DNA from: an uncultured Clostridium sp.
GTDB taxonomy: Bacteria; Bacillota; Clostridia; Lachnospirales; Lachnospiraceae
NCBI GenBank assembly: GCA_946553025.1
Contig: CAMNRM010000037.1
Span: 1-50,963 of the forward strand
Direction of reading: 5' to 3'
DNA: 50,963 nucleotides
Shown here: piece by piece, positions 3,447 to 19,679 of the stretch
How positions within the stretch are numbered: the stretch's first letter is position 1
How the letters are laid out: each line of letters starts with the position of its first letter
Position numbers and translations under genes: made by a program
Notes under the pieces: generated by a model
The model's database searches: none
Told to the model about the DNA's origin: nothing
What the model saw: the letters and a program-made list of their open reading frames with translations, nothing else

Positions 3447-3656
3447 ACTTCACCTCCTTCTTTTACACAGAAATGGATCACCGAAAATATCTGTACAAAA
3501 AATAATTTTAGAAAAAAACCGTGATTTATTCATTGTTTTGAAATATTGTATTGAAATATTAAACACTAATGGTTGAATTTTAACAACTTAGAGTGTATAA
3601 TGTTCAAAAGACTGGTAATGTTCAACGATATGGAATACCGTCGGAGAGGAGAGTCC

Positions 3657-4898
3657 ATGGCAAGACATTTATTCGTCCATATGCTGGGCAATTTTTCTAT
3701 GGAATTGGAAAATCAAAAACTGGAACTTCCCGGAAGTGCGTTCAATAAGACAAAAAATTTATTTCTTCTCATTTTATTTTACGGAAAAACGGGAATCGAA
3801 AGACACAAGGCGATGGAACTTCTCTATCAAAACGAGGACGGCGACGAGAACAGCCGGTATGGGCGCTTTCGCGTGTTAGTTTACCGGCTGAAAAAATATC
3901 TGATAGAATTAGGGCTGATGCAGGAGAACGATAATCTGCAGAAGAAAGGTATTTTTTGCTGGCAGCCCCCGGATCTGGAAATCTGCGTAGACGCCAGAAT
4001 ATTTGAAGCGGCGGCAAAGGATGCGCTTGGAAGCCGGACACAGGAAGCTTTGGAGCAAGCCTGTGCATTTTATCAGGGAGAATTTCTGCCCGAACTTACT
4101 TCGGAACCCTGGGTTGCACAGAAGCAGGTCTATTTTCAAAACCTCTACACCCAGTGTATGCGCCAATACCTGCTGCTTTTAAAGACGGGGAAAAATTATG
4201 AACCCATGCTCGAAGCCGCCAAGAGGGCGGCGCATCTTTATCCCTATGAAGAATGGTATATCGGCTGGATGGAGGCCCTGATGGGAATGGAGCGCTGGAA
4301 AGAAGCCTATCAGGTTTCGGAGGAACTGGAAAAAAACATGATGGACCAGATGGGATTGAGGCCCTCTGCCAAAGTGCAGGAACAGGTGCAGAAAATTAAT
4401 ATGCAGATTCGCGGTTCTTCCAAACAGCTATGGGAAATCCGTCAGGAGCTGGAAGAAAAGGGAAATTCTCAGGGTGGATTTTACTGTAATTACTCCACCT
4501 TTGCCTGGGCCTACCGCTATGAGATACGCAGAACGGCGAGAGATGGACTCTCCCATTATCTGCTTTTGTGTTCCCTTACAGAAATCCAAGAGGGGAACAG
4601 TTGGTTTCAGGAAGGGAACGGCTTAGATACCACCATGGAATACCTTCGGGAAGCCATCGCAGTTTCCCTGCGGCGAACCGATATTTACACCCGTTACAGT
4701 AAAAACCAGTACCTGCTGCTGATGCTTCAGATGAAGCAGGAAGACTGCTCCTCCATCAGCCAGAGAATCGAACAGAAGTTTAGAAGATATCCTGGGGTTA
4801 GGAAATTCAGGCTTCATTATTACTATACCCCGGCAGTCCATGAACTGGATTCCTCCTGGAAATCCCCAAAATCATTTCATTCTCCGCAGAAAGGATGA
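3657..4898 (+). CDS. SARP/BTAD-type transcriptional regulator
   Basis: The frame is open from 3573, but the ATG at 3657 has a GGAGAGG ribosome binding site and starts exactly at the conserved domain (HLFVHMLGNFSMELENQKLE), so I choose it, giving 413 residues. Residues 1-105 look like the winged-helix domain of SARP regulators. Residues about 110-265 match a bacterial transcriptional activation domain, with DARIFEAA, the YQGEFLPE motif and TPR-like helices. The remaining 150 residues are unassigned. SARP-type proteins activate adjacent genes, often for secondary metabolism or surface structures. Here the candidate neighbours are the divergent XRE gene and the methyltransferase. Target and effector are unknown. 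Confidence 0.75.
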   Translation: MARHLFVHMLGNFSMELENQKLELPGSAFNKTKNLFLLILFYGKTGIERHKAMELLYQNEDGDENSRYGRFRVLVYRLKKYLIELGLMQENDNLQKKGIFCWQPPDLEICVDARIFEAAAKDALGSRTQEALEQACAFYQGEFLPELTSEPWVAQKQVYFQNLYTQCMRQYLLLLKTGKNYEPMLEAAKRAAHLYPYEEWYIGWMEALMGMERWKEAYQVSEELEKNMMDQMGLRPSAKVQEQVQKINMQIRGSSKQLWEIRQELEEKGNSQGGFYCNYSTFAWAYRYEIRRTARDGLSHYLLLCSLTEIQEGNSWFQEGNGLDTTMEYLREAIAVSLRRTDIYTRYSKNQYLLLMLQMKQEDCSSISQRIEQKFRRYPGVRKFRLHYYYTPAVHELDSSWKSPKSFHSPQKG

Positions 4899-4985
4899 GG
4901 GGGGATTTTGGATACTTGGGACTTGCTTTATTTTGCTTAAACGAATATAATTATACCAGTTTTTAAAATCAAAATATTCCTGAGA

Positions 4986-6146
4986 ATGCCAAAAAGCCTG
5001 CCAATAGCAAGCGAACTTCAAATAAGACAGGGGGAAAAAAGATTGTTACAAAGCACTCTGCATAAAAAACAAAAGATTGATTTGTCCTCCGCGCCTTGGA
5101 CGATGCATGAGTTTTTTGCAGGAAGCGGGTTAGTTGCATACGGTTTAAAAGGTATGTTTGCACCAATTTGGGCTAACGATATCAGCGAACAGAAAGCGGC
5201 TGTATATGAAGCCAATTTTGGATGCAGACATTTTGAACTTGGCGACATAAAAAATATTAATGGCAGAGATTTGCCTTTTGCTCATTTATCCTGGGCTAGT
5301 TTTCCGTGTCAGGATTTATCTTTAGCAGGTTCTTTGGGCGGCATTCATGCGTCCAGAAGCGGGTTGGTATGGGAATGGCTGCGCGTTCTGGATGAAATGA
5401 AAGAAAAGCCCCGAATATTAACTTTAGAAAATGTAACTGGCTTACTTTCCACAAATGGCGGCAATAATTATCGGGTTCTCCATATGGCGCTTGTGGAACG
5501 TGGCTATGACTGCGGCGCTATCATTTTAAATGCCTCTCATTTTGTTCCGCAGTCAAGACCGAGAGTTTTTGTTATTGCCATAGGGCACGGTTATGAAATC
5601 CCTGCATACTTGACCGGAAGCACTCCTTGCTGGCTGCATAATAAAGCTGCCTCCGATTTAGGAAGGACTTTACCCGGATGGATCTGGTGGCAAGCAAAAA
5701 AACCTCCTTGCCGCCGCAGCGCACTGAAAGATATTATTGAGGAAGAATCAAAATTTGATAAAGATACTGTATTGCGGCTTATCCCAGAACGCCACCAGGC
5801 AAAACTAAATGAATATGATACGGTTTACGCTACTGGTTATCGTCGAACACGTCATGGAGAGCAACAATTAGAATTGCGTTTTGACGGCATAGCGGGATGT
5901 TTGCGAACTCCTGAGGGCGGAAGCAGCAGGCAATATTTAGTTGTAAAAAGAAACGATGAAATACATGCCCGTTTATTAACAGTGCGTGAAGCTGCCAGAC
6001 TCATGGGCGCACCGGATAGCTTCATTCTTCCCGGCAGCTATAACGACGGCTATAAAGCGATGGGAGATGCTGTCGCAATGCCGGTCGCTCAGTTCATCGG
6101 AGAAAAATTTCTTACAAAACTGGCGGAGGCCGTGTACAATGATTAG
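4986..6146 (+). CDS. C5-cytosine DNA methyltransferase, orphan
   Basis: All the hallmark motifs of the C5 methyltransferase fold are present: motif I FAGSGL (about residues 44-49, AdoMet binding), motif IV FPCQD with the catalytic Cys at about 108, motif VI ENV at 148-150, motif VIII QSRPRVF at 189-195, motif IX VREAARLMG and motif X GDAVAMPV near the C-terminus. The enzyme should methylate cytosine C5 in a short recognition sequence. At 386 residues it is of normal length, with a target-recognition region between motifs VIII and IX. The ATG at 4986 has no good ribosome binding site. A TTG at 5043 preceded by GGGGG is an in-frame alternative that loses no motif. No restriction endonuclease is recognisable next to it, so it may be an orphan or the remains of a restriction-modification pair. 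Confidence 0.88.
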   Translation: MPKSLPIASELQIRQGEKRLLQSTLHKKQKIDLSSAPWTMHEFFAGSGLVAYGLKGMFAPIWANDISEQKAAVYEANFGCRHFELGDIKNINGRDLPFAHLSWASFPCQDLSLAGSLGGIHASRSGLVWEWLRVLDEMKEKPRILTLENVTGLLSTNGGNNYRVLHMALVERGYDCGAIILNASHFVPQSRPRVFVIAIGHGYEIPAYLTGSTPCWLHNKAASDLGRTLPGWIWWQAKKPPCRRSALKDIIEEESKFDKDTVLRLIPERHQAKLNEYDTVYATGYRRTRHGEQQLELRFDGIAGCLRTPEGGSSRQYLVVKRNDEIHARLLTVREAARLMGAPDSFILPGSYNDGYKAMGDAVAMPVAQFIGEKFLTKLAEAVYND

Positions 6147-7045: not shown

Positions 7046-8353
7046 TTAGTGAGGGCAGGTTGAATGAGTTTCTACATCTATAAGGCGACCATAAACAACA
7101 TGACCACATACGGAACATCTTTTCCCATCATAATATCTCACTTCACAACTTCCATCACTGTTTTTTATATGTTTTGTCACTTTCCCACTAACATAATTAT
7201 GATTAGTACATGCTTCCCGTGTATGAATATCTTCTACGTTATATACATTTCCATCTTCATCGATAAATTGAACAGGATATTCTATTTTTGCAAACCTTTT
7301 TTGTTGACCCGGCAGCAAAAACTCAACACTGTCATCTTCTCCTTCTACCAAAAAGAATTCATATTGTTCTTCACTACAGGAAAATATTTGTACCCCTTCA
7401 GACGCAAATATCGGAAAACTGCTGACCAAAATCAATCCCAGTGAAAGAAAAAAAGCATATTTTGAAGTTTTCTTCGTGTTTCTCACAATCAATTCCCCTC
7501 TCTCTTTTAACTTTTCTTTATCATTACTTAACGAAACAGTCAATATTGCCGGATAATCTAAATTATACTCTGCCATATCGCAAATTAAAAAGGCATATTT
7601 TTTTCGTTTTTCTTTATCCATGTTTTTTATCACCAGTTCATCGCACGAACATTCCATGGCCAAATCCAGCCGCGCATACAGCTTATGGCTCAACGGGTTA
7701 AACCAATAAATCGTTTTGGAAACCATAGCTATCAGCTTCATTAATCCGTCCCATCGTTTGATGTGATACAGTTCATGAGTAAGAAGCAATTTCTGTTTTT
7801 CCAAATCTTTTATTGCTGGAATAATCACAATAGGTTTAAATATTCCCAGAGTAAAGGGAGATAATTCTGCCTTTGCCACTCGAAACTCAACTTTTCTCCT
7901 TAAATTAAGTTCCTTACGTTGTTCTTCTGCAATTTTCAACAGTTCTTCCGGCACGTTTTCACTGGTTGAATTAACTATGGTTCTTTTAAGTTTTATCAAT
8001 ATAATTACATAGCGAACAAAAACAAACAGCGCAACACACAACCACAGAATAAAAACAGCATAGGTAAGTTTAAATGCCATGTTTGTATGTAACGCTTCCG
8101 GTGTTTTAGCAATTAGCGGTGATTTTCCTTCGACTTTAAAAAACATAGGATCTCTTACAGGCCAAAATTCATCCATTATGGCTTGTATCGCAAACTTTAT
8201 AAAAACCATGGGAAAAACAGAGAAAAATACCGCTAATTTTAATAATACACATTGAAGGCGCTGGCTGAACAAATCCTTTTTGAAATACTCAATGGTAATA
8301 AACAATAAAAATAGACTATTGCTCGATATAAACATTGTCCATAAAATATCCAT
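7046..8353 (-). CDS. BlaR1/MecR1-type M56 membrane metalloprotease sensor
   Basis: The 435-residue protein has three N-terminal membrane segments (about 5-25, 33-57 and 92-120). A cytoplasmic M56 peptidase domain follows, with the zinc motif HELYH at 193-197 and ECSCDEL near 234, where Glu is the likely third ligand. A fourth membrane segment lies at about 297-316. In classical BlaR1 a penicillin-binding-like sensor follows. Here the outer domain is only about 120 residues and ends in a Cys/His-rich stretch (C382, H385, C403, C413, C416, H418, C433, H435) that looks like a metal-binding fold. I infer a signal-activated protease that inactivates the BlaI-type repressor encoded upstream, but sensing something other than a beta-lactam. 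The ATG follows AAGAGGTC. Confidence 0.88.
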   Translation of the reverse strand: MDILWTMFISSNSLFLLFITIEYFKKDLFSQRLQCVLLKLAVFFSVFPMVFIKFAIQAIMDEFWPVRDPMFFKVEGKSPLIAKTPEALHTNMAFKLTYAVFILWLCVALFVFVRYVIILIKLKRTIVNSTSENVPEELLKIAEEQRKELNLRRKVEFRVAKAELSPFTLGIFKPIVIIPAIKDLEKQKLLLTHELYHIKRWDGLMKLIAMVSKTIYWFNPLSHKLYARLDLAMECSCDELVIKNMDKEKRKKYAFLICDMAEYNLDYPAILTVSLSNDKEKLKERGELIVRNTKKTSKYAFFLSLGLILVSSFPIFASEGVQIFSCSEEQYEFFLVEGEDDSVEFLLPGQQKRFAKIEYPVQFIDEDGNVYNVEDIHTREACTNHNYVSGKVTKHIKNSDGSCEVRYYDGKRCSVCGHVVYGRLIDVETHSTCPH

Positions 8354-8451
8354 TATTTAGACCTCTTGTTCATTTTCTCTGCAACGTAAATCCCCAATTT
8401 ATCCCCATTTCCTCTTCTGTCATTTTTTTAATTACTTCCAATTTCTTCCAT

Positions 8452-8826
8452 TCACTGCCTACTTTCATCATCCAGGCTGTCTAAATATGCCTTTAATTCT
8501 TCCTTCTCCTCTTTCGTTATCCTTGCTCCACCTGTTAATGCAGCAAAAAAATTCTTCAATGTTCCCTGGTAGACATTATCCAAAACTTCTCTTGCACGTT
8601 CGGCTTCAAATTGCTTTTCTGTATAGGTATACATGTATTTCGTCCCATTTTTTGTCAAAATACCCTTTTCAGCCATACGGGTTAAATAAGTATTCACCGT
8701 CTGGCGCTTGCAATTCTTTCCGGAACGATTAAGATACTCCCACAATTCTGCCCCAGAAGCCCAGCGCTTGTTTTCCCAGAAAAACATCATAATTGCGTGT
8801 TCCATTGATGTTAGACTGAATTTCAC
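8452..8826 (-). CDS. BlaI/MecI-family transcriptional repressor
   Basis: The 124-residue protein matches the BlaI/MecI/CopY winged-helix family. Its N-terminal DNA-binding domain runs to about residue 75 (EHAIMMFFW, RQTVNTYLTRMAEKG, KYMYTYTE), and a C-terminal dimerisation helix region follows (AREVLDNVYQGTLKNFFAAL). The start codon is GTG, with GGGAGGG upstream. It lies 98 bp upstream of the blaR1-like gene, the standard repressor-protease pairing. Its own promoter contains a perfect 18-bp palindrome, which I take as its operator, so it should autoregulate. Related palindromes occur at two other promoters in this block. Confidence 0.92.
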   Translation of the reverse strand: MKFSLTSMEHAIMMFFWENKRWASGAELWEYLNRSGKNCKRQTVNTYLTRMAEKGILTKNGTKYMYTYTEKQFEAERAREVLDNVYQGTLKNFFAALTGGARITKEEKEELKAYLDSLDDESRQ

Positions 8827-8880
8827 GATTTCCCTCCCTTCTTTAGTTATATACTAACAATATTATATTTATCGCCTTCA

Positions 8881-8909
8881 AGCATACTACATTATAGTAG
8901 TAATGTCAA
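8881..8909 (-). promoter_or_regulatory. blaI promoter
   Basis: On the minus strand a consensus -35 TTGACA (8904-8909) and a -10 TATGCT (8881-8886) are separated by exactly 17 bases. The spacer is almost filled by the repressor palindrome, so bound repressor would block RNA polymerase. Confidence 0.75.
8885..8902. promoter_or_regulatory. BlaI-type operator palindrome
   Basis: TACTACATTATAGTAGTA consists of two perfect 6-bp half-sites, TACTAC and GTAGTA, around ATTATA. It resembles the TACTAC/GTAGTA-type operators of BlaI/MecI repressors and sits between the -35 and -10 boxes of the blaI-like gene. Confidence 0.75.
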
Positions 8910-8924
8910 TAGTCTTTTCCCAGC

Positions 8925-9491
8925 TTATTTATCTATTCCCCATGATTCAAATATTTTTTCCTTATCTATAACCCTGTATTCCCCTTCACACAAGCCAAGC
9001 AAATAGGAAGCAAAAGATTCATCTATCTGATAAATATACATGAGTTCGGACGTTGAAGTTGTTATCTGTTCATCATAAAGGTAATATTCATCATTGGCTT
9101 TGCATAGAACTTCTTTGTTGTGCGTAATTGGCTCATAGCCCTTATTTACAAAGTATTCATCCGTTTTAGCATATTCATCAAGTACAAGCAATATTTCTAT
9201 ATCCTCTGGAAGGGAATCAATCAGTTTTTTTGATGTATCTATCCCTCTATTCGTATATTCCATAATCACTTCCGGCTCTGTAATCTGGCGAATAGGTTTT
9301 GCATCCACAGGATTAAACACTTCAATCAACTGTTCATAATTAAAATCTTCGGGAATCTCCTGGATTTCTTCGGACGGCATTAATCCATAGGCTCTAAGCC
9401 ACTGGTCGTATCGAAATCTATAACGAAAACAGCCCGTGCACAATATACATGCACCTAAAATACAGCAAATTTGTTTCCATCGAATACGCAT
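8925..9491 (-). CDS. putative lipoprotein of unknown function
   Basis: The start at 9491 is chosen for its AAGGAGG ribosome binding site and because it places a lipoprotein signal (CCILGACILCTGC, Cys at about 21) at the N-terminus. The frame is open 22 codons further upstream. The 188-residue product would be lipid-anchored on the outer face of the membrane. The mature part is acidic and rich in Tyr and Glu, with no domain I recognise. It lies directly upstream of the blaI-like gene on the same strand and has its own consensus promoter, so it may be read through into blaI-blaR1. Confidence 0.7.
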   Translation of the reverse strand: MRIRWKQICCILGACILCTGCFRYRFRYDQWLRAYGLMPSEEIQEIPEDFNYEQLIEVFNPVDAKPIRQITEPEVIMEYTNRGIDTSKKLIDSLPEDIEILLVLDEYAKTDEYFVNKGYEPITHNKEVLCKANDEYYLYDEQITTSTSELMYIYQIDESFASYLLGLCEGEYRVIDKEKIFESWGIDK

Positions 9492-9585
9492 AAAAGCCTC
9501 CTTATATTTTATATATTTATACATACATCCTAAAAGTAACGAGCAAACAAAAACCATTTAATTAATACAATTATGTAGCAGCTAA

Positions 9586-9614
9586 AATATATCAAAAATA
9601 ACCTTATATGTCAA
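9586..9614 (-). promoter_or_regulatory. promoter of the lipoprotein gene
   Basis: Minus-strand -35 TTGACA (9609-9614) and -10 TATATT (9586-9591) are 17 bases apart. The -35 lies inside a 60-bp stretch that is repeated at 12431-12490. Confidence 0.65.
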
Positions 9615-9667
9615 TCCTTAGAAAATCAAGATTTTATTTCTATATGCTTGCAAAATTATCAAGACAA
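9608..9667. repeat. 60-bp duplicated intergenic segment, copy A
   Basis: This segment matches 12431-12490 at 47 of 60 positions without gaps, beginning ATGTCAATC and ending AAGACAA in both. In both places it lies upstream of a small minus-strand membrane or lipoprotein gene and contains that gene's -35 box, while a plus-strand gene starts on the other side. The rest of the 600-bp gene-free stretch 9492-10091 is AT-rich and holds the plus-strand promoter and operator listed below. Confidence 0.65.
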
Positions 9668-9843
9668 CAATTTAGTGATTTTATATAACTATTTCTTTAA
9701 TTATTCGTTTAAAAATTTTTCGACAAATAAAATTACAGAAATTTTTGAGAATTATTGGTCTAACAATTGAAAAAAAGTTAAGATCGAAGGTTTTCCTCCA
9801 AAATTTCCCAAGTAAAACTACACTATATTTTCCAAATTATGTA

Positions 9844-9872
9844 TTGACATCGTCGCCTACTTGTGTTAATAT
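9844..9872 (+). promoter_or_regulatory. promoter of the PPC-domain protein gene
   Basis: TTGACA (9844-9849) and TAATAT (9867-9872) are spaced by 17 bases, and the stretch TTGTGTTAATATAAT around the -10 is also found in the ABC operon promoter. The implied 5' leader is about 210 bases, long for this window. It contains a seven-codon mini-ORF at 10014 (MVKTMKT) preceded by GGAAAGGA. Confidence 0.6.
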
Positions 9873-9875
9873 AAT

Positions 9876-9893
9876 TACTACAATATAGTCTTA
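9876..9893. promoter_or_regulatory. degenerate BlaI-type operator at the PPC gene promoter
   Basis: TACTACAATATAGTCTTA agrees with the perfect palindrome upstream of blaI at 15 of 18 positions. It lies just downstream of the -10 box, over the expected transcription start, a normal repressor position. Confidence 0.5.
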
Positions 9894-10091
9894 ATATTTT
9901 TGCAGACATATTATTTTCAAATCATATTAAGATTTATTATCGTTTCATGGAAAAGAAAAACAAGTGAAGGAATTTAATTAAACTTTCACAATTTGTATGT
10001 GCCTTGGAAAGGAATGGTGAAAACAATGAAAACTTAATCTGACAAAGTATTATGAATATCAATCTATAAACATTCAGAAAGGGGAATATTG

Positions 10092-10988
10092 ATGAAATTC
10101 ACAAATGTCTACGAAAAAATCACTACACAAAAGAAAAGAAATCTAAAATTGATCACAAAATTTAGTATTGCCTTTTTAATAGCACTTAGTTTCAACTTAA
10201 CTTCATATGCTGCTTTTCAAGGACCAAATAATATAGGTGAAATTGAGCCTAATGATACACGAGAAACCGCCCAAACAACATATCTTACAAATGAAATCGC
10301 TGAGAGATTTTCAGCAGATGATTTTTCAGGTAGATATTCTATACGAGGACGGGCTACTTCATCAGATGACGACTGGTATAAGATTGATCTTCCAGGCGGT
10401 ATCCAATATTTATCTGTTGTACATGCTTATGGCGATAATGCTACCTATGTCGAATTACTTGACGCAGATAATAATGAAATAATCCCGAAAAAATACGGCA
10501 CTAGATATAATATAACCAAATTCAATTCAGATAAAGGCACTTATTATATTCATATCACTGGTGCTACAGAAAAAGAAAATATATATTCTTTATTTGTAGG
10601 AACACCAATGTTAAGCAGTGATGAAGTTAAAATCCGCTTTGATGCAGTACGCACAAATCGCACAATAAAGAAGACATTTTCACTTGCTGATGAAGATATC
10701 CTACCAGATGATGCTATTGTTACAAAAATTACACTAGATAGTTTATCTCTTGGATACAGTGGTGCTCGTATAGCAAATTCTAATTCAACTAAGAATGTTA
10801 CTTTTCCTTATCACGGCGATGAATTTGCAACTAATCTAGGGGCATTGAATATGAAACTAAAAAGTACCTGGAATGTAGAATTCTATCCCAATTCAACGGT
10901 TAAACTGGTACCTGATATTAGATTCTTTTACTTTTATCCGGTGTATGATAATACCAAATATCCACCTTATTCCACAATATTAAAATAG
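10092..10988 (+). CDS. secreted protein with PPC-type beta-sandwich domain
   Basis: The ATG at 10092 follows AGAAAGGGG. The 298-residue product starts with a basic region and a hydrophobic core (FSIAFLIALSFNLTSYAA), a signal peptide likely cleaved after about residue 41. Residues about 48-165 match the bacterial pre-peptidase C-terminal (PPC) fold, with EIEPNDTRETAQ at the beginning and DDDWYKIDLPGG in the middle. No protease domain is attached, and the C-terminal 130 residues are unassigned beta-rich sequence. PPC domains usually aid secretion or binding of extracellular enzymes, so a role as a secreted binding or effector protein is inference. Its promoter carries a BlaI-like site. Confidence 0.75.
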   Translation: MKFTNVYEKITTQKKRNLKLITKFSIAFLIALSFNLTSYAAFQGPNNIGEIEPNDTRETAQTTYLTNEIAERFSADDFSGRYSIRGRATSSDDDWYKIDLPGGIQYLSVVHAYGDNATYVELLDADNNEIIPKKYGTRYNITKFNSDKGTYYIHITGATEKENIYSLFVGTPMLSSDEVKIRFDAVRTNRTIKKTFSLADEDILPDDAIVTKITLDSLSLGYSGARIANSNSTKNVTFPYHGDEFATNLGALNMKLKSTWNVEFYPNSTVKLVPDIRFFYFYPVYDNTKYPPYSTILK

Positions 10989-10997
10989 GTGATTTTC

Positions 10998-11807
10998 ATG
11001 GAAATTAACTTTATAAAATATTATTCCACATGTAATAGCAAAAATCTCACAACTACCGCAAACAAAAAAGCATTACTCAATAAACTTAACAGCAGCGGAA
11101 GTTATACACAAATAGGAAATTTATTTACACTGAATGATGGAACTTCATTTAAAGCAAGTGATATTCCCAAACTTAATATTGACTCTTTATATGAAGCATA
11201 TGCAAAAAGAAATGTGATGGATTTTGGAAGTGCAAAATATTTTAAATATACTAATTCTTCAGGCAAAAGCCTGGCAATATTTTCAACGCCAAAAGGCAGT
11301 TTGTGCACGCCAATTTCAGAAAACATTCTTGGATATTCTGATTATGATATAGAAACAGAAAGGTATTTGCATTTCTGGAATAAATTAAAATCAGGTCATG
11401 CATTAATGCTTCCTCCCGGGAATTCTAACCTTCCATCATTTGGTTATTCAGATGATGATATACGAAATTACCTAAATAATGCAGGTATTTCCAAAGGCTT
11501 TTTTTCAGTAAAAGTCGGTTTAAAGCAGTCAGATTTTTTTTATTCTGATTCAAAACAAAATCCACTATATACAAAAGAAGAGTATGATTTGCGATATTAC
11601 ACTATGACATCCTCTGACTTTTCCTACGATAAAAGCGTATTCAACTGTATTGATCCGGGAACAGAAATCACAATTTCTGGTGAAAAATATATATTGAAAG
11701 ACGACTTTACTTTAGATATTCCCTATGGAACAGATATCTACGATATACAAATTCCGAAACATACATTTACAAGTAAAGTTCCCTCCAATATCAACTATAC
11801 GGCTTAG
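10998..11807 (+). CDS. hypothetical protein downstream of PPC protein
   Basis: This 269-residue protein begins at an ATG with AGGTG upstream, 9 bp after the PPC gene, so the two are very probably co-transcribed. It has no signal peptide or membrane segment. It contains ALLNKLNSSG near the start, an SLAIFSTPKGSLCTPIS stretch at about 90-107, and many Tyr, Asp and Ser residues. I do not recognise the family. Lacking an export signal while following a secreted protein, it could be a cytoplasmic partner or be exported by a different route. Confidence 0.65.
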   Translation: MEINFIKYYSTCNSKNLTTTANKKALLNKLNSSGSYTQIGNLFTLNDGTSFKASDIPKLNIDSLYEAYAKRNVMDFGSAKYFKYTNSSGKSLAIFSTPKGSLCTPISENILGYSDYDIETERYLHFWNKLKSGHALMLPPGNSNLPSFGYSDDDIRNYLNNAGISKGFFSVKVGLKQSDFFYSDSKQNPLYTKEEYDLRYYTMTSSDFSYDKSVFNCIDPGTEITISGEKYILKDDFTLDIPYGTDIYDIQIPKHTFTSKVPSNINYTA

Positions 11808-11827
11808 ATGTATAATGAATACAATTC

Positions 11828-11862
11828 ATCCCCTTCCTGAATTACCTATTAGGGAGGGGATA
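11828..11862 (+). terminator. probable terminator, convergent genes
   Basis: ATCCCCTTCC pairs with GGGAGGGGAT (one G-T pair) around a 14-base loop between the stops of two convergent genes. The T-run is weak, so confidence is moderate. Confidence 0.5.
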
Positions 11863-11873
11863 TCTAAAATTTA

Positions 11874-12356
11874 TTATGTTCCTTGCTTGTAATAGCATAC
11901 CATATTAAAGATATTTACAAATAATGTCAATGGCACTATAATCACGAAAATAGATAAACGAAATTTTTCTGAACTGTATAAAGAAATACCATCACTATAA
12001 ACCATAATATCATAATAGAAATCTTGCGGATCACACCTTTCTTCTTTTTCCAACGGAATAATTTCAGACAACTCATACCTTGGAAAAACCGGAAAACATG
12101 TAGCTGTCATAACAAAGATCTGTTCTTTCTCATCCTTGAGCAGATAAGAAATAGATGTTGTATTTTTAGTCTTTTTTACATCAATAATACTTAACTCTTT
12201 TCCAGATACTGAAATTTTCCCTTGTCTTTCAAGTTCAGATAAATCTTTAATTGTCTTAGGATATTTAAAAATAATTATCAATCCTAAAAGAAGAAAATAT
12301 GTAATTAACAAAAAAATCGTGCTCTTTAAATTTTTAGACATATTAATACCACGCAT
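11874..12356 (-). CDS. small two-helix membrane protein
   Basis: The 160-residue protein has hydrophobic segments at about residues 12-31 and 135-155, with a polar region between them that should face outside. It may start at 12356 or, five codons later, at the ATG at 12341 (MSKNLKSTIF). Neither has a strong ribosome binding site. No domain is recognised. Its promoter region is a duplicate of the one upstream of the lipoprotein gene at 8925-9491, and it is divergent from the ABC transporter operon. This suggests paralogous modules, although the two proteins themselves are not obviously alike. Confidence 0.6.
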   Translation of the reverse strand: MRGINMSKNLKSTIFLLITYFLLLGLIIIFKYPKTIKDLSELERQGKISVSGKELSIIDVKKTKNTTSISYLLKDEKEQIFVMTATCFPVFPRYELSEIIPLEKEERCDPQDFYYDIMVYSDGISLYSSEKFRLSIFVIIVPLTLFVNIFNMVCYYKQGT

Positions 12357-12409
12357 ATATTTTTCAGGAAACTATGATTAAATACATAATTGTAAACAGT
12401 GATGATTTT

Positions 12410-12437
12410 ATTTTAACAAAACAATTTCCCATGTCAA
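12410..12437 (-). promoter_or_regulatory. promoter of the small membrane protein gene
   Basis: Minus-strand TTGACA (12432-12437) and TAAAAT (12410-12415) are 16 bases apart. The -35 falls in the duplicated 60-bp segment. Confidence 0.55.
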
Positions 12438-12490
12438 TCATCGGAAAATTAAAATTTTATTTACATAGCCTTACAATTTTATTAAGACAA
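12431..12490. repeat. 60-bp duplicated intergenic segment, copy B
   Basis: This is the second copy of the segment at 9608-9667, with 47 of 60 positions identical. It is 45 bases from the ABC operon promoter, whereas copy A is 177 bases from the PPC gene promoter. Confidence 0.65.
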
Positions 12491-12534
12491 ATATGTAGCA
12501 ATATCAATATAAAAATTTCCAATTAGAATATCAA

Positions 12535-12563
12535 TTGACTTTACTACTTTATTGTGTTAATAT
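12535..12563 (+). promoter_or_regulatory. ABC operon promoter with embedded BlaI-like site
   Basis: TTGACT (12535-12540) and TAATAT (12558-12563) are 17 bases apart. The spacer contains TACTACTTTATTGTGTTA (12542-12559), which agrees with the blaI operator at 14 of 18 positions. The whole -35/operator arrangement aligns with the blaI promoter at 20 of 25 positions. Confidence 0.55.
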
Positions 12564-12636
12564 AATACCTGCAATTACAAAACAACATTATTTTCAACTT
12601 ATAAAGGACTAAGAAAGACTAAGGAAATCAACATCC

Positions 12637-13602
12637 ATGAACAAATTCCCCCTTCACCTCAAGCACTACTTACACTTACTTAAAAACTATATCCGCTACG
12701 ATTCATCCATACTGGCTTACATTGCCATAATACTAACCGCCCTTTTTTACACAATCATGACTATCATCCATACAGAAATTAATGACAATCTTATGAATTA
12801 CGGCGGGCTTCACGAAGCAAATACTTCCTATACGGTTAACTTGGGGCTTGGAACAGCACAAAAAGAATTTATCTATCTGTTAGAATTATTAGAAAAATAC
12901 AACCTGCAAAAAATAAAAGAAATTCGGATTTCCGTACCCCCGCTCCTAGGGGTTGGTATCGCATCACCGGATAATCCCGTTGATGATTTTGAACTGGATG
13001 GAAGGAGTTTTACTGAGCAGGAATTAATCAATGGAGAAAATAAAATTATTTTATCAAACAAAGATTACCGGACTTACTATAAAAATCATGAGATTGGGGA
13101 TACGCTTTCGATTGGCAACACGGATTTTCAGCTTATTGGTATTTCCTATACTGCCGAACAATCGATGATTCCTCTTAATTGTTTTCTTCATGCACAGACA
13201 CCATTTTTCACAAGTCACATTATACTAAAAACAGAACACCGCATAAATCTATGGGAGAGAATACAGCTTCGCAGAAAATACAATCAAATTTTATCCGATA
13301 AGCAAAAAGGTACTTTTTCTTTTGAATCCAATTTTTGGCATGTTGTCGTTAATCTATGGAATTCATTAAGTGACTACTTCCTTTCCATTGCCTTTGTTTT
13401 TGCTTTATGTACACTGCTTCTGTTTCAAACCGGCAGTATTCTCTATTACAAAAATCAATCGCATACATCCGTTTACCTGCTGTCTGGAGGTTCCGAAACT
13501 TTTTTAAAGCAGATTATCCTGGGTGAACTTATAACAGCCGCAGTTCTGTCACTGTTTCTGGCTTATCTGCTTTTGCTGGGGAGGATATTATGGATAGGTT
13601 AA
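12637..13602 (+). CDS. ABC transporter permease, FtsX-like, first subunit
   Basis: The 321-residue protein has a membrane segment at about 25-47, a large extracellular domain to about 245, and two further segments at about 247-268 and 292-318. This is the layout of FtsX/MacB-type permeases, which move lipids or peptides or act as mechanical transmitters rather than importing nutrients. The outer domain holds DFELDGRSFTEQELINGENK, a motif-like stretch common in MacB-type permeases. It ends within the start of the next gene (13-base overlap). The promoter has a BlaI-like site. Confidence 0.7.
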   Translation: MNKFPLHLKHYLHLLKNYIRYDSSILAYIAIILTALFYTIMTIIHTEINDNLMNYGGLHEANTSYTVNLGLGTAQKEFIYLLELLEKYNLQKIKEIRISVPPLLGVGIASPDNPVDDFELDGRSFTEQELINGENKIILSNKDYRTYYKNHEIGDTLSIGNTDFQLIGISYTAEQSMIPLNCFLHAQTPFFTSHIILKTEHRINLWERIQLRRKYNQILSDKQKGTFSFESNFWHVVVNLWNSLSDYFLSIAFVFALCTLLLFQTGSILYYKNQSHTSVYLLSGGSETFLKQIILGELITAAVLSLFLAYLLLLGRILWIG

Positions 13603-14702
13603 AACATTTTCTGTATCTGAATTATCTGAACTTTAAATTCCCCTTTTACTACTGCGGGATTGTTTCTGTTCTTCTTGTATTGTTTATGAATTTTTGCTTT
13701 ACAAAGCACAGTGAATTAAATAAAAAACGCGAAACATTAGAAGAATTAGATTATACAAATATTTATGCGGTGAGTTTTTCCATCCCGGAAGGAAATCAAT
13801 GTGAACAATTAGAAAAGGAATTAACCGACGCATTAAAAGGCAGTGCCCTCATTCTAAACTATCACAGAAATCCTTTATATACGACAATCAAAAATAACCG
13901 CATAGTATGTATCAATGTAATTACCGCAGAAGAAGCCGAATATTTTCATCTTTTTCCTCAAGGAAATCCCCGTGAAGACACTTATTCGGTTATTGTTCCA
14001 GATAAGCTGCAAAAAGTATTTAAACCCGGCTCTGAATATACATTGCCCATAGGTATGTATGTTCATGAGGAAACATGGAAAATTAATATCCATGTCATCG
14101 ATAACGCTGACCATCTTTTACTTTTATCTCCTAACTATGACCATATCCAATCACTACAGGATACACTGCTCATTTTTGATCCGCAGGATATGCTTCCGCT
14201 CCATTTAAGTACCTTCCAAAAGCCGGTTTTCTATCTTTATATGTATATTCAGGATTATGAAAAAACCATAGAAGTTTTAAAAAATTATCCTTTTATCCAA
14301 ATTCAAAAAAGGCAGGATAAGATTGAACATTCTTATAGTCTTACCTTACATCTGCTTCCCTCCTACTTTAAATTTCTGGTGTTAGGTGTTTTTATTTATA
14401 TTGTGCTGCCTGTGAATTTTTATCTGTTATTTTACTACAAACAGAAGAAATACATTATTATTTTCAATTACTGTAACCTTAACCGCAAATTCTATCTGCA
14501 ATGCATCGGAATACTAACTATGCTTCAGCTATGTTTTGGTTTTCTTTTTGGTCAACTGCTGTGGTTTTGTTATTGTAAATTCAGTGGAACGATGTACTGG
14601 CACAATGAATGGATATTCCTGCCTTTCCTTGTGCTGATTCATTTATGTATCTTTATACTTTTAAACAGGGGGTATAACTATCTTGTGCGAACCTATCATT
14701 GA
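13590..14702 (+). CDS. ABC transporter permease, FtsX-like, second subunit
   Basis: The ATG at 13590 follows GGGGAGGA inside the end of the previous gene, so translation is probably coupled. The 370-residue protein has one membrane segment at about 18-38, an extracellular domain to about 250 and three segments at about 260-285, 305-330 and 335-360, again an FtsX/MacB-like topology. With the first permease it probably forms a heterodimer. The two have diverged strongly in sequence. It overlaps the ATPase gene by 20 bases. Confidence 0.7.
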   Translation: MDRLKHFLYLNYLNFKFPFYYCGIVSVLLVLFMNFCFTKHSELNKKRETLEELDYTNIYAVSFSIPEGNQCEQLEKELTDALKGSALILNYHRNPLYTTIKNNRIVCINVITAEEAEYFHLFPQGNPREDTYSVIVPDKLQKVFKPGSEYTLPIGMYVHEETWKINIHVIDNADHLLLLSPNYDHIQSLQDTLLIFDPQDMLPLHLSTFQKPVFYLYMYIQDYEKTIEVLKNYPFIQIQKRQDKIEHSYSLTLHLLPSYFKFLVLGVFIYIVLPVNFYLLFYYKQKKYIIIFNYCNLNRKFYLQCIGILTMLQLCFGFLFGQLLWFCYCKFSGTMYWHNEWIFLPFLVLIHLCIFILLNRGYNYLVRTYH

Positions 14703-15417
14703 AGTAAAAAACCTGACTAAAACCTATGAAAATTATAATATCCTTAATCGCCTTTCCTTCTCGATTCATCAGGGGGATTTTGTTGCCGTGGTCGGAGAAT
14801 CCGGTTCAGGAAAAACGACCTTGTTAAATATCTTATTCGGTTTTACGGATTATAATGAGGGAAGCTATACACTTTTCGATGAACGGATCTTTATGCTGCC
14901 CAAATCAGCAACACACAGCCATGTTCAGAACAATTCCTCCCACCGCATTTCGTTAAAAAATTTAAGTTTAAAAGAAAAGCAAAATTTCCGCCAGGCATTT
15001 ATGGGCTATGTTCCGCAGGATTATGGATTAATTGACGAGTGGAACGTCTATGATAATATTACCCTGCCTTTGCTTTTTTCTAAAAATAACGCAATAAAAA
15101 AGGCCCCGGCACATTTGAGGACCTTATTTAAGTATATGCATCTCGACTACCTCGACTATATCCATCGAAAAGCAGCTTCATTATCCGGCGGCGAGAAGCA
15201 GCGAATCGCCATTATACGTGCACTGATAACCCACCCGCGGATATTAATTGCCGATGAACTTACCAGCGCCCTGGATGTTCAAATGAAGATATCCATCTTA
15301 TCTCTTTTACAGAATTTACGAGAATCCGGGCTTACCATTATCTTTTCTACCCATGATCCATCGATGATTGAACACTGTGATCAGGTGATTGATTTGCGGA
15401 AAGGAAAAAAGAGTTAA
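14683..15417 (+). CDS. ABC transporter ATP-binding protein
   Basis: All ABC ATPase motifs are visible in 244 residues: Walker A GESGSGKTT (38-46), Q-loop Gln112, signature LSGGE (167-171), Walker B ILIADE (187-192), D-loop SALD and the switch His224 in STHD. The start is a TTG with GGGGG ten bases upstream, inside the end of the second permease gene. It resembles the LolD/MacB-type ATPases that partner FtsX-like permeases. A segment at about 72-95 (PKSATHSHVQNNSSHR) is an insert relative to typical family members. The three genes form one operon, probably for export, immunity or lipid handling. The substrate is unknown. Confidence 0.92.
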   Translation: MCEPIIEVKNLTKTYENYNILNRLSFSIHQGDFVAVVGESGSGKTTLLNILFGFTDYNEGSYTLFDERIFMLPKSATHSHVQNNSSHRISLKNLSLKEKQNFRQAFMGYVPQDYGLIDEWNVYDNITLPLLFSKNNAIKKAPAHLRTLFKYMHLDYLDYIHRKAASLSGGEKQRIAIIRALITHPRILIADELTSALDVQMKISILSLLQNLRESGLTIIFSTHDPSMIEHCDQVIDLRKGKKS

Positions 15418-15585
15418 AAGGAAATTCGGAATCCGCTTCGCTACTTCCTCATATCCCCTATGCTGCTATCGCAGCTTGTCAGATGGGGCTTGCACCCCAC
15501 CTGACACAAGTAAGTCCCCCTACCCACTACTTTCGTCTTTACGACTTAGAAGCGGGGGACTTCCTTGATAGGTTAAAATTCCTTT
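15416..15585. repeat. ~170-bp structured dispersed element, copy 1
   Basis: This element recurs at 37142-37310 with roughly 90 percent identity. It folds into three strong hairpins: GCTGC/GCAGC; TGTCAG-a-TGGGG with CCCCA-c-CTGACA; and AAGTCCCCC with GGGGGACTT around a smaller inner stem. Its ends are near-complementary (AAAAGGAA and TTCCTTTT). It fills the whole gap between two convergent genes, and the last codons and stop of the AAA/PD-(D/E)XK gene lie inside its right end. It could be a MITE or a standalone guide-type RNA of the IS200/605 group (omega/HEARO-like). No transposase is present. Confidence 0.7.
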
Positions 15586-17297
15586 CCCTCTTCTTTTTCT
15601 ACCCTCACCATGCATTCTTTCTTCCGACAGGCAATTCCGTATTTAATAATCGTTGACATCCCATCATCTTTAAGCCTTTCCTTATACCCCATTTCCTCTA
15701 TCTGCTTCAGCGCTTCCCTGCATCCTGCTTCCAGATCCCCTCCTTCGGGATATTTGATCTCGATGACAATCCCTGTACTCTCCGATTCAATCTCCACCTG
15801 AATATCACTGTAGCCATCTCCGGATTCAATATTAGAATCAACATCCCAATCCCCCCGATGACTAAGCAAGCCTAATAAAATACCATGATAAAAATTCTCT
15901 TTTCGGGCTTTCCTTACACTGGTATCCCGAATACTGATGGTTTTCTTTAAGTATGCGGTAAACAGCCTCTCCACCGTTTTGCCGTCGCCCCGGGCAAATG
16001 CCGCACAAAATGCATCAAGCACAGGAGCATCCTTCCTGGCTTCCTCCTGAAACCATTCCATCACCTGCTCCATAATAATCTTTCGGATTTCCAGGTTGGG
16101 AATCACCAGGTCATAAAACTCCTCTTCTGCAGTTTCCCTGCTGGTCAAATATCCCGTAAGAAATAATACACTCCAAAGATTTTCTATGCCCTGATACAGT
16201 TCGCGGTATGTCAGTTCCTGATTCACTTTCTTCCTCACTGTTCCCCCCGCAAGCAGAGTTTCCATCTCCCTGCGGATTCTCGGTGTAGACATCCGTAAAA
16301 ACTGCCGGATAATATAATTCCCGCTGGTATTCATCCAGAATGCACGGGGAGATGCATCCGGCTCTGAACAGAGAAGATTCACATAACTTATCACATCCCA
16401 CGGGCAATACAAATCGGTCTTTCCGAAATGATACCCGTCATACCATTCTTTCATCACTCCATACTTATCCGCCAGGCCATAATCGTCCAGTAAATTCTTC
16501 ACTTCTTTATCCGAAAAGCCAAAATGCTCTGCAAAGCGAATATCCGTAATAGAAAAGATATTAAAATTGTTCAGTCCTGTAAATATACTTTCCCTGGCGA
16601 TTTTCAGACATCCGGTCAGCACCGCAAAATACAGATGATTATTCCCCTTTAATGCCTGTCCGAATATCCCCCTTATCAGCCCAACCATTTCTTCATCATA
16701 GCCAAACTGATGCGCTTTATCCAGAGGTACATCATACTCATCAATCAGCAAAATTACTCTCTGCTTATAATGCTTCCTGAGGAGCTGGGTTAAGGTCATC
16801 AGGCTGTCCTTCAGCACATCCTCTGCCATGATAAATCCTGTTTTTCCTTCTTCATCAATATGGATCAATTGGCGATACCGTTTCTTTTCTTCTTCGGAAA
16901 GCCGGTCACTCTCCAAAAGAAACAAATGCTGTAAAGCCTCCCGACCAATCGTCGAAGCCAGCATTATCCGTGCTCCCTCATAGTCCCTGGCATCCACCCC
17001 TTTCAGAGTAATCGAAACCACAGGGAATTTCCCCATATATTTATCGCATAATTCCTGCTCCCCTGAAATCTCCAGCCCTTCAAAAAGCTGCCGACTGCAG
17101 CCATATTCAAAAAACGATTTGATCATACTCATGTTCAGGGATTTTCCAAACCGCCTGGGACGGGTAAAAAGATTCACTTCTCCCCAGTTATGCAATAGTT
17201 CCGTAATCAAGCCTGTTTTATCTACATAATAAAACCCTTCTGTGCGAAGCTTCTCAAAGTCCTCGATCCCTATCGGTAACTTTGCCTTCCTATCCAT
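15573..17297 (-). CDS. AAA-ATPase-like / PD-(D/E)XK nuclease-family protein
   Basis: The 574-residue protein has the two-part layout of a very common gut-bacterial family (AAA-ATPase-like plus a C-terminal PD-(D/E)XK region). Near the N-terminus are the conserved FYYVDKTGLI and a P-loop-like RPRRFGKSLN at 46-55. A Walker B-like VILLIDEYD follows in the middle, and near residues 500-525 comes the nuclease-like core GYSDIQVEIES...IVIEIKYPEGG. The function of the family is not established, and nuclease-like or defence roles have been suggested. The ATG follows AAAGGGGAC. It is the last gene on this strand after the ExbB/ExbD-like operon, with a 93-bp gap, and its stop lies in the dispersed element. 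Confidence 0.85.
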   Translation of the reverse strand: MDRKAKLPIGIEDFEKLRTEGFYYVDKTGLITELLHNWGEVNLFTRPRRFGKSLNMSMIKSFFEYGCSRQLFEGLEISGEQELCDKYMGKFPVVSITLKGVDARDYEGARIMLASTIGREALQHLFLLESDRLSEEEKKRYRQLIHIDEEGKTGFIMAEDVLKDSLMTLTQLLRKHYKQRVILLIDEYDVPLDKAHQFGYDEEMVGLIRGIFGQALKGNNHLYFAVLTGCLKIARESIFTGLNNFNIFSITDIRFAEHFGFSDKEVKNLLDDYGLADKYGVMKEWYDGYHFGKTDLYCPWDVISYVNLLCSEPDASPRAFWMNTSGNYIIRQFLRMSTPRIRREMETLLAGGTVRKKVNQELTYRELYQGIENLWSVLFLTGYLTSRETAEEEFYDLVIPNLEIRKIIMEQVMEWFQEEARKDAPVLDAFCAAFARGDGKTVERLFTAYLKKTISIRDTSVRKARKENFYHGILLGLLSHRGDWDVDSNIESGDGYSDIQVEIESESTGIVIEIKYPEGGDLEAGCREALKQIEEMGYKERLKDDGMSTIIKYGIACRKKECMVRVEKEEGKEF

Positions 17298-17390: not shown

Positions 17391-18383
17391 TCAGGATATT
17401 TCCAGCAACCGCATCAAAAACATAATATCATCCACATGGTTTGCATCCGAATATACATAGAGATAGACAATAATTCCCTCCGTATCCATCGGCTGAAAAA
17501 CAAATTCCACATGATGCCCCTCTCCAAGGATATCCTGATAGGCGTCCTGATAATACTGATACCTGGCACCATAATAAGTATTTACTTTTTTTGCCGGAAA
17601 TTTATCCAGACGGTCAGGATTTTTCTTTAATATATTGGCAATAATTGCCCGTTCAATCAGTTCAGTTTTACTTTTATCACTGGATTTTTTTAACAGCTTA
17701 TTATCAAAATAGCAGACAAAAAAGCTTTCCGGCTGCACCGCCGCAGAGGAGGGAATTTCATTTAACCGGTATTGATATCCCTCTATACTTCCCAGCTCAT
17801 TATCCGCAATAGGATATTCTGCCCCTGACCATGCTTCTGGAATATAATACGTAATCTTATCCCCTGCAAGCGTGCGGACAAGCATCGTTTCCTTGTCCAT
17901 TGTTTTTCCATTCAGCAGAGAAAAACAAGAGCCGGAAACGGCATCATCGTCTGTCTTTTCTATTTTAGAAACCTCCATCGTTAAATGGCTGCCGATTAAA
18001 CTTATCGAAAACTCCCCATAAACCTTAACCACATCGCCGGCCGAAAGTGTTTCAATACAAGCAATCACATCGGCATCGGAAGAAGAACATTTAACCGTCC
18101 CCGTCTGCGTCCCGCTCACCGATACCAGGGTCACAGCATTATGCTTTTTTGCTATCTCCGACAGCTTGCCGAGAAGAACCACTTGGGTTTTATTGTACTT
18201 ATCTTTAGAAAAATCGCGATTGGATGAAAAATCCTCAAGAATCTTATCCACCGTATCCTTTTGATACACAACGTTTTTTTCTGTATCCAATGTCATTTCC
18301 GATGAATGAAAGATAAATCCGCAAAGCAATGTGCTAAACAGCAGCACCATCATCAACATTAATTTTCTTCTGTGAACATACAT
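17391..18383 (-). CDS. membrane-anchored protein with tRNA_anti-like OB domain
   Basis: I choose the ATG at 18383, preceded by GGCGGGAG, over an in-frame TTG six codons upstream. The 330-residue product starts with a basic stretch and one hydrophobic segment (about 8-26), which is a signal anchor or peptide. Residues about 60-145 look like the small tRNA_anti-like OB fold (KTQVVLLGKLSEI, VKVYGEFS, LTMEVSKIEK). The rest is unassigned mixed alpha/beta sequence. It lies downstream of the ExbD-like genes in the same orientation, so I infer that its extracellular part works with that complex. Binding partner unknown. Confidence 0.7.
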   Translation of the reverse strand: MYVHRRKLMLMMVLLFSTLLCGFIFHSSEMTLDTEKNVVYQKDTVDKILEDFSSNRDFSKDKYNKTQVVLLGKLSEIAKKHNAVTLVSVSGTQTGTVKCSSSDADVIACIETLSAGDVVKVYGEFSISLIGSHLTMEVSKIEKTDDDAVSGSCFSLLNGKTMDKETMLVRTLAGDKITYYIPEAWSGAEYPIADNELGSIEGYQYRLNEIPSSAAVQPESFFVCYFDNKLLKKSSDKSKTELIERAIIANILKKNPDRLDKFPAKKVNTYYGARYQYYQDAYQDILGEGHHVEFVFQPMDTEGIIVYLYVYSDANHVDDIMFLMRLLEIS

Positions 18384-18474
18384 TTTTAATACTCCCGCCA
18401 AAATCTTTATGCGCCCACCCGCAGACGCACCGCCGTAAATAAATCCTGATAATTAGTCAATGATTAGTCAATAA

Positions 18475-18954
18475 TTAATCAAAACTAATCTCAATCCCCG
18501 CCGTCTTATTTAATTCTCTTAATATTGCAAGCACTTCGCGATAAACATGGGCTTCGGCATAATCATCCACCAGCTGCACATGGTAAATTCCATTTTTATT
18601 CTCCGCTTTTATTTTATTTTCTAAATCACATTCTTCGACAGAGGAATATACGCGGTCATTATACGTAATCTTTGTATCTCGAATCGTTATCGTTATCTTT
18701 TTCTCTTCCTGTAAAGCCTCCGACTCTTGAAGCGGATGGCTTTCTGACGAATGAGCGGATGTTTCTTCACTCGGTAATTCTCCTGACATCAGGGTATTTC
18801 CCTGATTTCCTATCGGAGCATCTTTAATGGCTTTATCCAAATCAATTAATAATGTATTATTCAGCAATTCAACCGATTTCTCCCCCCAGCCGGATAATAC
18901 TAATACACTTAAAATCACCAGCAAAATGAGAATTATTTTTTTCATCTTCTGCAT
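18475..18954 (-). CDS. ExbD/TolR-like extracytoplasmic protein
   Basis: The 159-residue protein has one N-terminal hydrophobic segment (about 5-22), a Ser/Glu-rich linker and a C-terminal domain of about 75 residues. The pattern of that domain (ITIRDTKITYNDRVY, then YHVQLVDDYAEAHVYREVLA) resembles the outer domain of ExbD/TolR. Its ATG overlaps the upstream stop in the sequence TAATG, so translation is coupled. It lacks the charged membrane residue expected for a motor subunit (the segment reads ILILLVILSVLVLSGWG), so it may be an accessory rather than a proton channel part. Confidence 0.6.
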   Translation of the reverse strand: MQKMKKIILILLVILSVLVLSGWGEKSVELLNNTLLIDLDKAIKDAPIGNQGNTLMSGELPSEETSAHSSESHPLQESEALQEEKKITITIRDTKITYNDRVYSSVEECDLENKIKAENKNGIYHVQLVDDYAEAHVYREVLAILRELNKTAGIEISFD

Positions 18955-19535
18955 TATTCATCACTTTCCGTTTCATAGTTCATCCCATAAGTATCAAGCA
19001 GTTCTTCGACTTTATGATAGGTGGAAGAAACTGCAAAATCATCCTTGAGAAAAATCCCCTGCCTTCTGTCTAATTGTTTAATACAGGCTTCAAATCCTTC
19101 GATGCTGTCCATTTTCTGTCCGTTGCAGTAAATCGTTTTTTCACTGATTAAGATTTCATACGAATATTCATCCTTCCCCGCTGCACCGCTTTCCTGCTTC
19201 TGCTGGCTGTCTATCCTGTCATCCCCGGTTGCTGCCCCGTCAACATATTCCGAAAAAAGTGAATCCTCACCCCTTGGAGCATTTTTCAACAATACACCGG
19301 TAATCAGGCAAATAAATCCCATAAACAGAAAAAATACAAATGACCTTCTGAGAACTTTATACTCCTTTTCCAGAACAGTTCTTCCATGATCCGTATAATA
19401 CATTAAATCATCAGTGCTGTGAAAGAACACAACACGTATTGCCTTAAAAAACGGCTGAATCGACAGAGCAATCAGTCCAACAAACCCACAAACGGCAAAT
19501 AAAATGCCAACCACAATAAGTATCTTTGGTAACAT
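18954..19535 (-). CDS. two-TM protein with ExbD-like outer domain
   Basis: The ATG at 19535, preceded by AGAGGTG, is chosen over a start 13 codons upstream without a good site. The 193-residue protein has membrane segments at about 4-27 and 64-84 and a C-terminal outer region. That region's last 70 residues (YEILISEKTIYCNGQKMDS, then a helix and FAVSSTYHKVEELLDTYGM) follow the same pattern as the ExbD-like domain of the next gene. It appears to be a paralogue-like accessory of the motor operon. No named family is recognised. Confidence 0.6.
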   Translation of the reverse strand: MLPKILIVVGILFAVCGFVGLIALSIQPFFKAIRVVFFHSTDDLMYYTDHGRTVLEKEYKVLRRSFVFFLFMGFICLITGVLLKNAPRGEDSLFSEYVDGAATGDDRIDSQQKQESGAAGKDEYSYEILISEKTIYCNGQKMDSIEGFEACIKQLDRRQGIFLKDDFAVSSTYHKVEELLDTYGMNYETESDE

Positions 19536-19567
19536 TACAACACCTCTATATTGATTTTCTCCCTGTA

Positions 19568-19679
19568 TCCTCAAAATCCCTTTTTCATCTATACGTCCTC
19601 AGCATCCCTTTTTAACCTGTACATCCTCAAAGACCCTATTTAATATACACATTCTCAAAATCCCTTTTTAAATCATTAA
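19568..19679. repeat. 28-bp degenerate tandem repeat covering the exbD-like 3' end
   Basis: Four consecutive 28-bp units (19568, 19596, 19624 and 19652) share the core CTCAAAATCCCTTTTT. The unit at 19652 encodes the natural C-terminal KRDFENVY of the ExbD-like protein, the stop lies in the unit at 19624, and the other two lie in the intergenic gap. The simplest reading is stepwise duplication of the gene's tail. Confidence 0.65.

Follow-up and report, generated by a model that had tools for sequence, protein, structure and literature searches.

We analysed a 50,963-nucleotide contig (CAMNRM010000037.1, here C37; hereafter the window) from the 4.87-Mb genome, in 126 contigs, of an uncultured Clostridium sp. 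Between positions 7046 and 15417 it carries genes for a BlaI-family repressor and a BlaR1-like membrane protease (here BlaI and BlaR), a lipoprotein (lip210), a PPC-like secreted protein and its partner, a small membrane protein (mem160) and an ATP-binding cassette (ABC) exporter (perm1, perm2 and an ATPase). We predict that these genes probably form a compact, self-contained regulon in which BlaI acts at five promoters and is governed by a sensor other than a penicillin-binding one. An earlier, sequence-only reading of this DNA had proposed a local BlaI regulon linking the PPC-like gene to the exporter through three sites. Both the sequence statistics and the blaI operators of relatives support this link, and the plus-strand sites stand, but two sites on the minus strand (9580-9563 and 12500-12483) had been overlooked. 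The motif evidence supports a larger predicted regulon of five promoters instead of three, with lip210 and mem160 as the two further members.

On the minus strand, lip210 is followed by blaI (8452-8826) and blaR (7046-8353); past the lip210 end lie the PPC-like gene and partner on the plus strand, mem160 on the minus strand, and perm1, perm2 and the ATPase gene on the plus strand. BlaI (124 aa) contains a Penicillinase_R winged-helix domain (PF03965, 63.2 bits against a cut-off of 22.6); no other DNA-binding protein was recognised among the nine that the segment encodes. Its predicted autoregulatory operator, TACTAC-N6-GTAGTA (8885-8902, minus strand; 18-mer TACTACATTATAGTAGTA), lies between the −35 (8909-8904) and the −10 of the blaI promoter. 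Described earlier as a perfect palindrome, it is one in its 6-bp arms but not in its central ATTATA. Of 16 relatives fetched, 11 carry the same motif in the blaI promoter with at most two arm mismatches; all of these sites score at least 11 by a weight matrix trained on 17 relatives' operators with the window excluded, and in 10 of the 11 a −35-like hexamer (TTGACA, TTGACT or TTGAAA) stands 1 nt ahead of it. It is missing from the blaI promoters of L188, L198, L200, L201 and L202. Because these sites, or near copies of them, trained the matrix, the count of 11 in 16 describes the operator and does not test it; three of the loci (L192-L194) nearly duplicate each other. The closest related pair, from Clostridia bacterium UC5.1-2E3 (BBZO01000003.1; BlaI 59% identical), has TACTACAGTATTGTAGTA in its blaI promoter, with arms equal to those of the window operator and a different middle. 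Its presence at 8885-8902 and in the blaI promoters of these 11 relatives makes this a credible BlaI operator.

Genome-wide scans of 14 relatives with a related blaR found sites with at most one arm mismatch in 11 of them. In G205 the sole perfect-arm site is the blaI promoter, and in G093 the blaI promoter holds a tandem pair with one mismatch in each site. The relative L190 carries a second BlaI-type operator at 9805-9822 (GACTACATAAGTGTAGTC, arms fully complementary), 153 bp upstream of a 406-aa unannotated gene that comes next after blaI-blaR. This operator is outside the matrix training set and is a precedent for an extra target.

In the window, four operator-like sites accompany the neighbouring transcription units. 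The lip210 site (9563-9580, minus strand; TGCTAC-ATAATT-GTATTA-AT) lies 5 nt past the −10 of a predicted promoter at 9614-9586; the PPC site (9876-9893, plus strand; TACTAC-AATATA-GTCTTA-AT) 3 nt past the −10 of one at 9844-9872; and the mem160 site (12483-12500, minus strand; TGCTAC-ATATTT-GTCTTA-AT), the weakest of the five at 9 of 12 arm positions, 5 nt past the −10 of one at 12534-12506. The ABC site (12542-12559, plus strand; TACTAC-TTTATT-GTGTTA-AT) instead sits in the spacer of a predicted promoter at 12535-12563, 1 nt past the −35, in the register of blaI promoters. Read along transcription, all four share the form T[AG]CTAC-N6-GTNTTAAT, and all are co-oriented with their genes. TACTACAATATAGTCTTA at 9876-9893 matches the blaI 18-mer at 15 of 18 positions and, by direct comparison, TACTACTTTATTGTGTTA at 12542-12559 does so at 14 of 18, as first reported; recounting likewise upheld the reported likeness of the blaI and ABC promoters (20 of 25 positions from the −35 onward). 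The 9876 site had been placed over the start of the PPC gene, which is incorrect: it lies 216 bp upstream of the start codon at 10092.

Could BlaI control its own operon only, the other four sites being chance matches in AT-rich promoter DNA? We consider this unlikely. In the two divergent intergenic regions (9492-10091 and 12357-12636), three sites with at most two arm mismatches were observed against 0.021 expected, a number reached in none of 4000 shuffles; among 90 arms of equal composition, TACTAC ranked first with these three sites, the next best having one. Allowing three mismatches gave four sites against 0.33 expected (P 0.0015), and the weaker weight-matrix test gave three scoring at least 6 against 0.25 expected (P 0.003). 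These local tests point in the same direction with different strength. Against the base composition of the window, the matrix ranks the blaI site first in its 51 kb, lip210 second, PPC third, ABC sixth and mem160 sixteenth. When a motif was built from the other three sites, it recovered the PPC and mem160 sites, with no match in 3000 shuffles of the respective intergenic region.

The shared form of the sites is also specific to them in this genome. Positions 1-21687 of the window recur as a near-identical inverted copy on contig C63 (no differences up to 21605, eight in 21606-21676), which may be a true duplication or an assembly of variants; the C63 copies were left out as independent evidence. 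With zero mismatches, T[AG]CTAC-N6-GTNTTAAT occurs in the genome only at the four target promoters and their C63 copies; one mismatch adds six matches, two of them at the blaI site and its copy and four at unrelated places, and the reversed control gives 29 at up to one mismatch. The blaI promoter register, TTGACW-N-TACTAC-N6-GTNNTA, yielded 11 matches genome-wide at up to two mismatches against six for its reversed control. With zero mismatches this pattern recovers only the promoters of blaI and the ABC operon, each with its C63 copy; there is none with one mismatch, and seven have two, including one before mem160 and its copy. The four co-oriented sites and the register of the ABC site also speak against chance.

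What favours chance is the degeneracy of the sites and their number elsewhere. At up to two arm mismatches the genome holds 55 sites, five in the window, four in the C63 copy and 46 elsewhere; of the 41 outside sites checked, 30 fall within open reading frames (ORFs) 80 aa or longer and the other 11 do not. Many equally good matches at unrelated loci had been named beforehand as evidence that would count against the regulon, and these 46 in part bear that out. The reversed control for this search returned 287 sites and is therefore no matched null, and four of the five window sites (blaI, 9563, 9876 and 12542) fall within 3.7 kb. The full 18-mer at up to three mismatches is not enriched genome-wide (five matches, two of them C63 copies and one unrelated, against 12 for the reversed control). 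Single-site genome-wide counts thus show no excess, and the signal lies in local clustering and shared form, not in genome-wide rarity of single sites.

A different explanation, which we judge improbable, assigns the motif to another regulator or to a BlaI paralogue, or sees in it a remnant of the copying of one divergent promoter region. The genome does hold further BlaI-family genes (eight matches, including copies and fragments), an HTH_3 gene and a BTAD regulator lie nearby, and the two divergent intergenic regions resemble each other over an AT-rich stretch some 60 bp long. On the other hand, the CTAC half-site, the N6 spacing and the −35 register of the ABC site are those of the adjacent blaI operator, the sites are differently placed relative to the shared stretch, and the upstream flanks of all five are for the most part dissimilar, with 12-32 of 60 positions equal.

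Several further observations weigh against the predicted five-promoter regulon, as do the additional BlaI-family genes and the unenriched 18-mer. The target sites score well below the blaI site (lip210 10.7, PPC 7.6, ABC 6.1 and mem160 4.0, against 20.9), and in each, one or two of the arm bases that never vary among the 17 training operators are lost. With an AT-rich background their ranks fall to 5 for lip210, 10 for PPC and 13 for ABC, with mem160 outside the first 22 and blaI still first. Elsewhere in the genome there are stronger matches than these degenerate sites, and 38 sites scoring at least 6 turned up in 141 kb from other loci, which had mostly been chosen because they hold a match. 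The GTNTTAAT form was composed after the sites had been seen, and leaving each site out in turn recovers neither lip210 nor ABC, because position 15 differs in each. Promoter-like matches in the AT-rich block are no commoner than chance predicts (27 against 25.0), and our promoter assignments are thus plausible but unproven; a promoter-like sequence at 12437-12410 (11 of 12) lies downstream of the mem160 operator and might escape control. Among the relatives, three of the 14 genomes with a related blaR lack an operator at up to one arm mismatch; a perfect-arm site outside the blaI locus is present in both G093 and G102. Neither blaR nor perm1 was recognised in the ORF tables near PPC or partner genes in 11 stretches of other genomes. 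Finally, control by Clostridium thermocellum BlaI is reported strictly to require two inverted-repeat pairs (PMC8457756), a rule that also favours chance matches, since each target here has one.

The sensor sets this pair apart. BlaR (435 aa) has an M56 zinc protease domain with an HExxH motif (HELYHIK; PF05569, 115 bits), in which H193, E194 and H197 are invariant in an alignment of 12 sequences, the window included. The same alignment shows a Cys/His-rich C-terminal outer domain with conserved residues at 382-435: H385, H395, C403, C413, C416 and C433 are invariant, and C382 and H435 nearly so. Relatives of BlaR were found in 37 of 298 other genomes of the family at E<=1e-20, and the match reaches the last residue in 11 of these. 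The only solved structure that BlaR matches is Staphylococcus aureus BlaR1 (PDB 8EXP); the alignment covers just the membrane and protease portion and ends at residue 358 of 602. No Pfam family other than M56 exceeds its cut-off in BlaR, no transpeptidase domain appears in Pfam at E<=1, and the blaR1_generic model scores 88.2 of 400 bits. By its sensor domain, BlaR falls outside the beta-lactam receptors, although it probably works in the way they do. Since a short Cys/His-rich outer domain replaces the penicillin-binding one, beta-lactam sensing is unlikely, and the cell-wall-antibiotic sensing implied by the sequence-only reading finds no penicillin-binding sensor domain to rest on. That this is a classical beta-lactam sensor system whose output happens to be unusual, as the pairing of BlaI with an M56 protease and the match to BlaR1 alone might suggest, is highly improbable: the protein has only 435 aa and a Cys/His-rich outer domain conserved across the alignment, and Pfam recognised no beta-lactamase among the nine proteins of 7046-15417.

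These data suggest the following scheme. BlaI would repress its own operon by binding TACTAC-N6-GTAGTA between the −35 and −10, and would repress four neighbouring units, lip210, the PPC-like gene with its partner, mem160 and perm1-perm2-ATPase, each of which has at its promoter a single site of a second class, T[AG]CTAC-N6-GTNTTAAT. The M56 membrane protease would detect an outside signal with its Cys/His-rich domain and then, by analogy with BlaR1, whose activated M56 domain is reported to cleave BlaI (PMC9834060), would cleave the repressor. The five promoters would open together, delivering a lipoprotein, a secreted beta-sandwich protein and a MacB-type pump to the envelope. A protective role there, perhaps against a peptide or another envelope-active agent, would fit this scheme, although we regard it as rather doubtful.

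Among the predicted targets, the lip210 gene (8925-9491, minus strand) encodes a 188-aa lipoprotein from the ATG at 9491, in an ORF open from 9557, with the lipobox LCTGC and no Pfam or NCBIfam match. The PPC-like protein (10092-10988, plus strand; 298 aa) has an N-terminus that looks like a signal peptide by eye; its assignment comes through homologues, two of four family members matching PF04151 (best E 3.8e-5), while the window protein itself has no such match at E<=1. Its partner (10989-11807, plus strand; 269-272 aa, starting at GTG 10989 or ATG 10998) shows no signal peptide by eye and matches nothing in Pfam or NCBIfam. Within the family, 4 of 396 other genomes carry PPC-like relatives (3 of 298 in a smaller scan), and 9 of 298 carry partner relatives. 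The two genes are adjacent in two of the four other PPC-bearing genomes (G203 and G144); in G297 and G330 the ORF tables show no recognised partner next to PPC. This adjacency, with neither blaI nor blaR nearby, indicates that the pair is a unit elsewhere without this switch. In L040 a distant BlaI-family gene lies about 3 kb from the partner gene. The neighbour tables came from a simple ORF picker that missed the blaI gene of L082, later found by eye, and their absences are therefore no proof. In L041, L044 and L045, partner-family proteins stand beside other unannotated proteins, and some of the N-termini look alike.

Mem160 (11874-12356, minus strand; 160 aa) has no NCBIfam match and reaches the cut-off of no Pfam model. 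The ABC operon comprises perm1 (12637-13602, plus strand; 321 aa), perm2 (13590-14702, plus strand; 370 aa) and the ATPase gene (14683-15417, plus strand; 244 aa). It pairs an ABC ATPase (PF00005, 95.5 bits) with a permease carrying a MacB periplasmic core (perm1; PF12704, 28.8 bits against a cut-off of 27), as a MacB-type exporter does. The FtsX permease domain is below cut-off in perm1 (10.4 against 25.5 bits), perm2 has no Pfam or NCBIfam family, and the best NCBIfam model for the ATPase, the Lcn972-type exporter ATPase TIGR03608, is below its cut-off (186.1 against 254.85 bits). No close relative of the operon was found in family genomes, plasmids or viral contigs.

Nor did searches of family genomes, BlaI loci, plasmids and viral contigs find a second genome with the whole cluster. 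Among 298 other family genomes, perm1 had only two short weak matches, and a single partner sequence searched against genome contigs gave none. The listed neighbours of 16 BlaI loci (about 3.5 kb on one side, 5.5 kb on the other) include no PPC, partner or perm1. Plasmid searches with perm1 and with 4.2 kb of DNA were empty, and those with blaR found partial M56 matches only, in 35 records; viral contigs gave nothing for PPC, BlaI, partner or perm2. Across 10 further genomes of the genus, blaR finds no relative above 26% identity. The G+C content per 1.5-kb block is 31-36% at about 6-15 kb, 36% at 19.5-21 kb and 40-52% elsewhere in the window, and the AT-rich block was probably acquired.

Ahead of the cluster, an HTH_3 gene (3132-3446), a BTAD regulator (3576-4898) and an adjoining C5 cytosine methylase occupy 3132-6146, and an ORF at 2-2899 contains internal near-repeats at 2016-2234 (matches at shifted positions). 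Immediately past the ABC operon, the minus strand encodes a protein with AAA-ATPase_like and PDDEXK_9 domains (15573-17297), followed by an apparent operon (17391-20751) for MotA/ExbB-like and ExbD-like proteins, two small proteins and a tRNA_anti-like protein, which may form a TolQR- or Zorya-like motor.

BlaI/BlaR pairs are usually annotated as regulators of beta-lactam resistance. If our prediction is correct, a set of such pairs in gut Clostridia serves another purpose through another sensor, their targets become searchable through the operator, and the PPC-like protein and its partner, two uncharacterised families, gain a first regulatory handle. More broadly, and with confidence a little short of even, we propose a BlaI-BlaR subfamily of gut Clostridia in which the penicillin sensor has been swapped for a Cys/His-rich domain, with a metal, redox state or an antimicrobial peptide as its signal, and which controls local, private regulons of unannotated surface proteins, here with five promoters in 8.4 kb and a separate class of target site. 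None of the titles and abstract openings listed in searches of open-licence papers gives an account of this module or of a Cys/His-type BlaR sensor.

The system resembles BlaI-BlaR1 and MecI-MecR1 of S. aureus and Bacillus licheniformis (PMC9834060) in joining a BlaI-family repressor, an M56 membrane zinc protease and an autoregulatory promoter dyad. It differs in an outer sensor that is not transpeptidase-like, in its five promoters, and in predicted targets that are envelope proteins and an ABC pump where those systems control a beta-lactamase or PBP2a. The exporter is like MacB/FtsX-type and lactococcin-972-type ABC exporters in combining a permease that has a MacB-like outer domain with one ATPase, and unlike them in its two dissimilar membrane proteins and in falling below the cut-offs of the FtsX and TIGR03608 models. 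Mycobacterial BlaI is reported to affect non-beta-lactamase genes (PMC12565901), with ftsQ and Rv1303 named as targets; these form no single local cluster with blaI, unlike the arrangement here. For C. thermocellum, PMC8457756 describes small BlaI regulons with hypothetical-protein targets and inverted repeats of the half-sites GTCTAT/GACTAT set 5 nt apart, two pairs to each target; in the window, by contrast, each target promoter has a single dyad, the spacing is N6, and the target sites form a degenerate class of their own.

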